A stretch of DNA of 28,223 bases from positions 1 to 28,223 of IMG/VR virus record IMGVR_UViG_3300005293_000050, one strand, 5' to 3'. The notes below the pieces were generated by a model, which was given only the letters and a program-made list of their open reading frames with translations, had not been told where the DNA came from and ran no database searches. Position 1 is the first letter of the stretch. Each line of letters opens with the position of its first letter. Positions 357 to 1,787 of this stretch are shown here, one piece after another. Made by a program: the position numbers and the translations under genes. The stretch comes from a virus.

Positions 357-782
357 ATGAGTGAAGAACTCGATCTTTCGTGGGCAGAGGGCCAGATTGC
401 CGCTGCTCGCGTACCGGTCCCCGTAGGGAAGGCTGTCATCGCGCTACTCAAGGCGTGGGCAGAGCTAGACTTCCCGAATGAAGCACAGCAAATCAAGGCA
501 CTCGAACTCTTCAATTCTCTGGCTCGTAACGAGGCTGTAGTAGAAGACACTGAGGCCGTGTGGACGCCTGTGCAGGTTGGCTTTATGCTCAAGGTCGGTG
601 ACACCGTACGAGTCCGCAAGGATGCGTTTACGGACGAAGCCGGTCGAATTCACAATGGGCGTATTGGCCGCGTACTAGCCAAGCGTTCCGGAGACATCAT
701 CATCCGCACAACGGATGATCGTAAGCCGTATCTGGACGGTGCGCACTACCCTGCTTCGGCGCTGGAACTCCGCGTCAAGTAG
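357..782 (+). CDS. hypothetical protein with C-terminal SH3/KOW-like barrel
   Basis: This 141-residue protein is not recognised. AGGAG at 346-350, six bases before the ATG, fixes the start. Residues 1-70 look mainly helical and acidic. Residues 78-141 read as a small beta barrel: VGDTVRVRKDAF, then NGRIGRVLAKRSGDIIIRT, then a closing strand. The GxxGxVL turn followed by a strand resembles KOW and other SH3-like folds, which often bind nucleic acid or peptides. It lies in the plus-strand block with the WhiB-like gene, behind its own extended -10 promoter, and is closed by the hairpin at 797-825. Consecutive stop codons TAG TAG end it. A role in early or regulatory functions is inferred from position only. 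Confidence 0.75.
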   Translation: MSEELDLSWAEGQIAAARVPVPVGKAVIALLKAWAELDFPNEAQQIKALELFNSLARNEAVVEDTEAVWTPVQVGFMLKVGDTVRVRKDAFTDEAGRIHNGRIGRVLAKRSGDIIIRTTDDRKPYLDGAHYPASALELRVK

Positions 783-832: not shown

Positions 833-861
833 TTGCTTTATTCAGGAAGATGTACTATGAT
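833..861 (+). promoter_or_regulatory. sigma-70-type promoter TTGCTT-N17-TATGAT
   Basis: TTGCTT at 833-838 and TATGAT at 856-861 are separated by exactly 17 bases, four and five matches to the -35 and -10 consensus. Start of transcription is expected near 868. The -10 box covers an in-frame ATG at 857, so that codon would not be in the message, which supports the ATG at 893 as start of the following gene. The site lies directly downstream of a terminator. Confidence 0.7.
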
Positions 862-892
862 AGAGCCCAAGACCGCATTCAACTGGAGACAA

Positions 893-1216
893 ATGACATC
901 CTCACAAACCTGGCAGCAGTGGGAAGGCCTGGGGTACCCGGCTGAAAGACTGACTTCCGTAATCTATTACTTCCCTGGTAAAGCCAACATCGAAAATGAC
1001 GAGCAGCGTGATCGCCTCGCTGAAGAAATCAAGATGGACGGCATTGCCCCCTCGAAGAGCACCGCTCACCTGATCCTTGAGGACGCTATTGTCTTCCACG
1101 GACAGGTTGAGTACATCCTTGGTGAACTGTGGTTCTACAATGGAAACTCTTCCGGCAATCTGACGCAGGAAATTCACGAAGCGACCTGGGTGGAACTCGA
1201 TGCTTACGAAGATTGA
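893..1216 (+). CDS. hypothetical protein, 107 residues
   Basis: The frame is open from 833, but the ATG at 893 is preferred. It has GGAG at 885-888, and the earlier TTG (833) and ATG (857) fall on the predicted promoter boxes. The protein is acidic and rich in Trp and Tyr, with a likely mixed alpha/beta fold, a helical patch around NDEQRDRLAEEIK, and no Cys cluster, signal peptide or membrane segment. No family is recognised. Its 3' end overlaps the WhiB-like gene by 17 bases in another frame, so the two are probably translated from one message and the protein may work with that regulator. This link is inference from overlap only. Confidence 0.7.
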   Translation: MTSSQTWQQWEGLGYPAERLTSVIYYFPGKANIENDEQRDRLAEEIKMDGIAPSKSTAHLILEDAIVFHGQVEYILGELWFYNGNSSGNLTQEIHEATWVELDAYED

Positions 1217-1775
1217 TGATAACCGTGAGCCGTTCGAGTACTATGCCGAATGGCGAGACGACGCCGCGTGCGCGCAGCCTGAAAATAACCGCATCTTCTT
1301 TAGAGAGCGCGACATCTGGTTCCACCCTGAGGTCGATGAGGAAGGCTATGATGCGTGCCAGAAGGAGCGGGACGAAGTAAAGGCCCTCTCTATCTGCTTC
1401 TCGTGCCCTGTGAGGGACCTTTGCCTCGTGGAGGCCCTGGAGGATCAGCGCATCAATGGAACGCGCGGAGGGCTTACAGAGAGCATGACACGGGCTACTC
1501 TGAGCGTAGACGAGACTGGAAAGGAAATCCGTCGAGGCGAATTCCCCGACTGCCCATATTGCGGCGCTGCAACGGACGCGCTCGTGCCTACGAAGATCGA
1601 CCTACCGGACGGTGGAAGGTGGAGTGAGGCTAAGGCTGTCAAGTGCGGCGATTGCGGCTTTGAGTGGAAGTCTAGAAGTTCCCACAACTCTGTGGTAGCC
1701 TACTTCGGAGAGCAGAAGAAGAGGGCTGAACAAGAAAGACGTGAACAAATAGCACGAGAGCGGCTGTCAATCTGA
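1200..1775 (+). CDS. WhiB-like iron-sulfur regulator with C-terminal zinc ribbon
   Basis: The N-terminal 100 residues carry the WhiB signature. C24 is followed by C66-x2-C69-x5-C75, the four ligands that hold a [4Fe-4S] cluster in this family, and then by a GTRGG turn at 87-91 like the GVWGG turn that contacts sigma factor. WhiB proteins act as redox-sensitive transcription factors bound to sigma region 4, and phage copies are known to modify host gene expression. Unusually, the chain runs on to 191 residues. A second pair of Cys knuckles, CPYC at 118-121 and CGDC at 149-152, forms a zinc-ribbon-like element, followed by a charged helix. WhiB proteins are normally about 80-130 residues. The ATG at 1200 has only a weak GGAA upstream and lies inside the preceding gene, which suggests translational coupling. 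The stop codon lies in the terminator stem. Confidence 0.88.
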   Translation: MLTKIDDNREPFEYYAEWRDDAACAQPENNRIFFRERDIWFHPEVDEEGYDACQKERDEVKALSICFSCPVRDLCLVEALEDQRINGTRGGLTESMTRATLSVDETGKEIRRGEFPDCPYCGAATDALVPTKIDLPDGGRWSEAKAVKCGDCGFEWKSRSSHNSVVAYFGEQKKRAEQERREQIARERLSI

Positions 1776-1787
1776 CAGCCGCTCTCG
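1755..1787. terminator. bidirectional terminator between convergent genes
   Basis: A perfect 15-bp stem (1755-1769 with 1773-1787) encloses a 3-base loop. It overlaps the last codons and stop of the WhiB-like gene and lies 11 bases from the stop of the minus-strand exonuclease gene. The right flank has a short T-run, and the left flank seen from the minus strand is TGCTATTTGTTC. Its place between two convergent genes suggests it stops transcription from both sides. Confidence 0.8.

Follow-up and report, generated by a model that had tools for sequence, protein, structure and literature searches.

A WhiB-ribbon fusion protein restricted to viruses and its acidic neighbour: a probable two-protein device for the capture of host RNA polymerase

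The stretch of DNA analysed here (hereafter, the window) corresponds to positions 1 to 28,223 of the IMG/VR virus record IMGVR_UViG_3300005293_000050, that is, 28,223 nucleotides from a phage of soil actinobacteria. Near its start lies a gene whose product joins a WhiB (Wbl) domain to a C-terminal ribbon, preceded by a small gene encoding an acidic protein; the fusion and its acidic neighbour look like a two-protein tool for the takeover of host RNA polymerase. The following features can be distinguished:

357..782, plus strand: gene A, 141 residues, two positions upstream of the WhiB-ribbon gene (tblastn homologues).
857..1216, plus strand: partner gene, encoding an acidic 119-residue protein (conserved upstream homologue; alignment A8).
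1200..1775, plus strand: WhiB-zinc-ribbon protein, 191 residues (translation of the open reading frame; AlphaFold2 model run with 46 homologues, pLDDT 90.6, pTM 0.83).
1251..1493, plus strand: WhiB (Wbl) domain, residues 18-98 (Pfam; VIA-align Z to WhiB1, WhiB3 and Streptomyces WhiB).
About 1341-1373: insertion, approximately residues 48-58, between the first and second Fe-S ligands (alignment of 55 homologues).
1458..1472, plus strand: turn G87-T-R89-G-G91, with R89 at 1464-1466 (alignments; WhiB3 W76 aligns with R89).
1494..1544, plus strand: linker, residues 99-115, with the invariant motif LSV...E.R (alignment of 55 homologues).
1545..1703, plus strand: C4 zinc ribbon, residues 116-168, with C118, C121, C149, C152, GGRW and CxFxWxSRxSxN (alignment, model).
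1674..1769, plus strand: C-terminal charged helix, residues 159-190 (AlphaFold2 model, block pLDDT about 88-96).
1755..1787, no strand: perfect inverted repeat of 15 bp, arms 1755-1769 and 1773-1787, spanning the whiB stop codon.

The N-terminal part of the protein is recognised by the Pfam model WhiB (PF02467) over residues 18-95 (E 4.9e-10; 40.3 bits vs. a cut-off of 23.6), as are all 13 aligned family members, and, among solved structures, the closest in sequence are those of WhiB3, WhiB4, Streptomyces WhiB and WhiB1. The first-pass annotation had read the cluster ligands C24, C66, C69 and C75 (C...CxxCxxxxxC) in this 191-residue frame, a reading borne out by the translation and by the invariance of the four positions in 55/55 distinct homologues; a further cysteine, C53, is not conserved among them. 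Most likely, then, to judge from this ligand set, the protein binds a [4Fe-4S] cluster through its WhiB domain. The predicted model consists of the WhiB helices, a three-stranded ribbon and the helix 159-190, and reproduces the Wbl fold (VIA-align Z 8.6-11.0 against seven solved Wbl chains); on the sigma-A4-bound WhiB1 and WhiB3, its WhiB part superposes with Z 10-11 and an rmsd of 1.8-1.9 Å over 72-76 residues. The insertion, which is predicted to lengthen a helix, is found in 8/55 members, all in the clade of the window, and is absent from Pumpernickel.

The turn that follows the cluster ligands deserves closer attention. It had been described as an intact GTRGG turn, and its GxxGG frame is indeed kept (G87 is invariant; G90 and G91 are each present in 54/55 members), but the canonical Trp is not, its place being taken by R89. 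The usual motif, G[VI]WGG, occurs in 30/30 sampled host WhiB loci, which, as the best Pfam scorers, are biased to canonical WhiBs; within the family, Trp is kept in 46/55 members and replaced by Arg in 9/55 (the window and eight close relatives). These nine belong to the Microbacterium-type group and form one group in the tree (support 91). In the alignments, W40, F41 and R89 correspond to F31, F32 and W76 of WhiB3, each of which (in WhiB1: F17, F18 and W60) is required for binding sigma-A4, and the change of WhiB3 W76 to Ala abolishes that binding (PMC10245118). The two aromatic positions are thus retained as W40/F41, while the residue that marks the canonical sigma-A4 binders (WhiB1 W60, WhiB3 W76) is missing, and because R89 replaces it the window protein is here classed as a Wbl protein, not as a canonical sigma-A4 binder. 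As aligned, a key sigma-contact position is altered in the window's clade, and canonical sigma docking may have been lost there.

Beyond the linker, the protein carries the CPYC (118-121) and CGDC (149-152) pairs. The presence of such a ribbon and of a charged helix after the WhiB domain, already noticed in the first-pass annotation, agrees with the sequence, the homologues and the model alike. The four ribbon cysteines, C118, C121, C149 and C152, are conserved without exception in the 55 distinct homologues, as the ligands of the cluster are, so that eight cysteines are invariant; since tail motifs including C152 and GGRW were used to retrieve part of these homologues, the invariance of C152 and GGRW is inflated, a bias from which the search based on the partner gene and the plain tblastn are free. 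Other invariant residues are (i) R98, L101-S102-V103, E109, R111, P116, R140-W141 and V147; and (ii) more distally, F154, W156, S158-R159, S161 and N163. Conservation is higher in the ribbon than in the WhiB domain (1.02 vs. 1.27 bits of mean column entropy), GGRW and WxSRxSxN are near-invariant among homologues with about 38-86% tail identity, and dN/dS in the ribbon is about 0.03-0.18 where computable, with dS near saturation, which indicates purifying selection. Cysteine invariance and dN/dS rule out chance Cys pairs. The model places strands at 128-134, 143-149 and 155-157, so that the two conserved CxxC knuckles and a beta-hairpin typical of a C4 zinc ribbon are both present, the tail folded alone reaching a pLDDT of only 72.5; presumably, the tail binds zinc.

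It is less easy to assign the ribbon to a known type. A Pfam search of the window tail returned nothing significant; Foldseek with the tail alone (the fold of pLDDT 72.5) gave no significant match (E >= 0.26), with the archaeal Rpb9 1qyp in its list; and Foldseek, VIA and profile models yielded no significant match between the ribbon and known DNA- or polymerase-binding ribbons. The net charge of the window tail is about neutral (-0.2) despite the many charged residues of its helix, while most freshwater relatives have strongly basic tails (+10 to +18). One member, L203 (IMGVR_UViG_3300000405_001035), extends more than 100 residues beyond the ribbon, unlike the other members seen. The idea that the protein is an ordinary WhiB with a structural decoration of no added function could appeal to the unrelated C-terminal extensions of other phage WhiBs (LilSpotty, Fruitloop), but the near-invariance of GGRW and WxSRxSxN seems to go beyond the needs of stability, and we regard it as extremely unlikely.

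The tail is widespread among viruses. A search of IMG/VR with the tail found at least 517 contigs, and eight named phage records carry it. Among 80 loci retrieved in this way, 75 have an in-frame WhiB upstream, two are cut by contig ends and three are non-matches to the regular expression. By tblastn against phage records, the relatives are (i) Microbacterium phages of about 186-195 kb, including A3Wally, Big4, Zooman, Cece and Pumpernickel; (ii) the lake-water phage DSL-LC01; and (iii) more distantly, Arthrobacter phages. Part of the window matches A3Wally at about 75% DNA identity, from which the window is taken to be a piece of a large phage of the Microbacterium type.

About half of the sampled actinobacterial genomes encode ordinary WhiBs, most of them in short frames. 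The tail profile detected nothing at E <= 1e-3 in 396 actinobacterial genomes (0/396), known carriers scoring E 1e-38 to 1e-43 as positive controls, and no CxxC follows the turn in the 30 sampled host WhiBs (0/30), a sample for which, given its bias, the search of the 396 genomes is the fairer comparison. The tail as a common feature of ordinary WhiBs is rejected on these two counts. Neither of the two observations that would have spoken against the first-pass annotation, variable Cys pairs at 118/121 and 149/152 or a tail shared by many ordinary WhiBs, was therefore made. The bacterial genome collection contained no tail-bearing relative, its single contig match (L095) being a tail-less WhiB, and the plasmid WhiBs gave matches to the WhiB domain only. 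In a quick tree with long branches, the 55 members cluster together, separately from the host WhiBs sampled (support 89, moderate), and the Arthrobacter phage proteins fall next to them. On sequence grounds, the WhiB-ribbon proteins are a virus-specific WhiB subfamily and not a single oddity. Hence, the architecture, once singled out as unusual for a phage transcription modifier, is so when compared with host WhiBs but not among phages, where it defines a widespread subfamily. Several freshwater records encode one or two additional WhiBs in shorter frames, some of these paralogues being tail-less, and for this reason the ribbon form appears as a specialised paralogue in those records.

The gene immediately upstream, which in the window shares its last 17 nt with the beginning of whiB, accompanies the family almost without exception. 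Its product has a pI of about 4.5 (in a longer, 127-residue reading), and the homologues have charges of about -6 to -21. A partner homologue lies directly upstream in 54/55 family members, usually with an overlap of 4-17 bases; the exception, L035, has the WhiB-ribbon gene without the partner and, by eye, gene A directly upstream instead. A search of IMG/VR with the partner only, for which alignment A8 was too diverse to serve as query, found at least 456 contigs, and in the best 80 of these loci the WhiB-ribbon gene is immediately downstream in 76, the other four being at or near contig ends. Among named phages, the partner is present in exactly the same eight records as the tail. Pfam, PHROGs, NCBIfam, PADLOC and PDB profiles gave no confident match for the partner, with scattered weak ones only; a search of the 396 actinobacterial genomes, run without a positive control of its own, was empty; and the upstream genes of the Arthrobacter phages showed no detectable kinship with it (hhalign probability 0.1). 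Such linkage would fit a complex between the partner and the WhiB-ribbon protein. Simple charge pairing between an acidic partner and a basic tail fails family-wide, the window tail being neutral.

A small acidic first gene, overlapping starts and stops and a fixed pairing are also what would be expected of a toxin-antitoxin-like pair in which the acidic protein neutralises a growth-inhibiting WhiB-ribbon protein. This is very improbable: the pair is located, in large phages, within their core replication region, PADLOC returned no defence-system match, and the partner-less L035 is unexpected for an antitoxin model. Likewise, the phage WhiB domain might compete with or repress a host WhiB, the ribbon being mainly a targeting or stabilising tail. 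There is a precedent in mycobacteriophage TM4, whose WhiB is reported as a transcriptional inhibitor that acts on whiB2, blocking host WhiB2 function and septation (cited in PMC10611076 and PMC10202952), and the tail-less paralogues of some family phages could fill other roles. Antagonism of this kind leaves unexplained, however, both the conservation of ribbon and linker above that of the WhiB domain and the near-constant acidic partner, and it is judged unlikely.

Regarding the neighbourhood, the pair sits beside recombination genes. In Microbacterium phages, a RecB-like and then a RecA-like gene are followed by two hypothetical genes, the partner and the WhiB-ribbon gene, after which comes a convergent DnaQ-like gene. 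Freshwater contigs repeatedly show homologues of gene A and of the RecA-like and SSB-like genes close to the pair ("SSB-like" being a reading of the sequence by eye, not a database match), and tblastn matches to gene A were obtained in 54/88 family loci, at the same position even in distant members. A stretch of gene A (VGDTVRVRKDAF...GRIGRVLAKRSGDIIIRTTDD) is KOW/SH3-like by eye, with no Pfam match. In DSL-LC01, the pair is found in a different setting (methyltransferase, pyrimidine dimer glycosylase, glycosyltransferase).

This context could point to a replication/repair or restriction factor with a Lar-like ribbon, acting with the neighbouring RecA-, RecB- and SSB-like genes and not at promoters. 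The gene ends the recombination cassette in Microbacterium phages, homologues of gene A, RecA and the SSB-like gene are again found upstream of it in freshwater contigs, sigma docking would on this account be lost in the window's clade through the R89 change, and the nearest named profiles of the tails are VdcD (best E 2.8e-6) and Lar (best E 9.2e-6), with 21/25 tails each. Nevertheless, both sets of matches fall below the curated cut-offs where scored, the canonical Trp persists in most of the family (46/55) and the DSL-LC01 pair has another gene context; on balance, a role of this sort seems improbable.

Downstream, the inverted repeat separates the convergent whiB and dnaQ-like genes and is also present in six relatives (L002, L003, L004, L005, L014 and L015). 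In L014 and L005, paired changes affect both arms, so the last whiB codons (ARERLS) seem to double as a hairpin, and the repeat is probably a bidirectional terminator. As for the transcription machinery, neither a sigma factor nor an RNA polymerase is annotated in the roughly 174 kb of A3Wally examined, positions 49,001-69,999, a region that matches tail genes and primase, being covered only partly. Consequently, A3Wally probably relies on the host polymerase.

Taking these data together, the preferred reading, to which a probability of about 0.5 is given, is that of a phage-specific Wbl cofactor that is made with its partner and docks on host sigma-A/RNA polymerase, the ribbon providing a second contact. 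The WhiB domain would hold a [4Fe-4S] cluster and bind the host primary sigma factor at its region 4, close to the beta-flap tip; the partner would be produced in step with the WhiB-ribbon protein from the gene just upstream; and the ribbon and helix, together with the partner, would make a second contact, with either upstream promoter DNA or the polymerase, which would steer host RNA polymerase toward phage genes. In the window's clade, since the turn Trp is lost, the sigma contact would be weaker or rewired, with the partner or the ribbon compensating for it. Sigma docking is proposed because the ligands and core motif are invariant, the model superposes on the sigma-A4-bound WhiB1 and WhiB3, and W40/F41 are kept; the partner is included because of its linkage (54/55, 76/80, the same eight phage records). 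Also in favour are the invariant ribbon, well modelled as part of the whole protein, the probable reliance of A3Wally on host polymerase and the inhibition of transcription reported for the TM4 WhiB. Against the proposal count R89 in the turn, a ribbon with no significant match, the neutral tail of the window protein and a partner with no recognisable fold family. Domain architecture, the eight invariant Cys, the restriction to viruses, the partner linkage and the place beside recombination genes are direct observations; cluster and zinc binding, contacts with sigma or DNA, a complex with the partner and an effect on transcription are inferred.

It is plausible that the protein touches the transcription complex at two points, as the first-pass annotation suggested. 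The analogy drawn is with known Wbl proteins: the AT-hook of WhiB7 and the Arg-rich motif of WhiB3 are subclass-specific DNA-binding additions to a common sigma-docking core (PMC10245118), and the ribbon and partner are, on the favoured analogy, their counterparts. More tentatively, and on the doubtful side, a virus-only two-protein complex might appropriate actinobacterial RNA polymerase by a sigma contact unlike the one known from Wbl structures (with Arg for Trp, in one clade), the ribbon being a new polymerase- or DNA-binding module.

Nowadays, whiB genes are routine actinophage markers, and, to our knowledge, the roles of phage WhiB proteins have been established for very few of them. The existence of whiB-bearing actinophages is well documented (PMC8612146; PMC10914622; PMC6802176), and several proteins of the present family have been deposited in GenBank under the name "WhiB family transcription factor". 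No description of a zinc ribbon in a phage WhiB, or of the partner gene, was found in the literature searched, which covered few subscription journals. What emerges is a sharply defined subgroup, a Wbl protein with an invariant ribbon, encoded nearly always beside a small orphan gene, carried by large Microbacterium phages and very many freshwater actinophages. Its relevance is threefold: (i) it offers a handle on how the carrier phages redirect host transcription; (ii) as a natural experiment, it bears on the Trp by which Wbl proteins bind sigma-A; and (iii) it provides an annotation for "hypothetical" genes across hundreds of viral genomes.

In comparison with known systems, the window protein shares with the Wbl family PF02467 (WhiB1, WhiB3, WhiB7, Streptomyces WhiB) the four Cys ligands, the core helices, the fold, the aromatic pair W40/F41 and the GxxGG frame of the turn. 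It differs in that a C4 ribbon and a long helix stand where those proteins have a short basic tail or an AT-hook, and in belonging to a virus-only family with a linked partner gene and, in the window's clade, an Arg in the turn. The actinobacteriophage WhiBs surveyed in PMC8612146 are, like it, phage-borne Wbl proteins; the main text of that survey nowhere mentions zinc. The WhiBs of the Arthrobacter phages Atuin, Mimi, Racecar and Talia1610 come closer, inasmuch as the WhiB domain is followed by CxxC...CxxCGLxWxxRKxxN, which aligns with the tail, but their ribbon is shorter, lacks GGRW and is preceded by a different upstream gene.

Among small zinc ribbons, Lar (TIGR03655/PF14354) and VdcD (NF041205) have a similar spacing of their two CxxC pairs, whereas the ribbon of the present family is fused to WhiB, and the functions of Lar and VdcD are not transferable to it. 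The window tail scores 20.1 bits with TIGR03655, below the cut-off of 39.6, and the best E with PF14354 is 0.012; with NF041205, L071 scores 20.7 bits, below the cut-off of 30, and the window tail is unlisted at E <= 0.5. The ribbons of Rpb9, TFIIS, RPA12 and NrdR give VIA Z values of about 3 over 40-50 residues (rmsd 2.2-4.3), scores that are typical of common small folds and are not evidence of kinship, and no database model marks the ribbon as a polymerase-binding type. Finally, other phage WhiBs have additions of their own: LilSpotty gp59 (L010, 977-1330) bears a Cys-rich extension, CxxC...FCSxxC, after WhiB, and gp55 of Mycobacterium phage Fruitloop is deposited as a WhiB/HNH endonuclease. 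Since these extensions differ, phage WhiBs have probably acquired C-terminal additions on more than one occasion.
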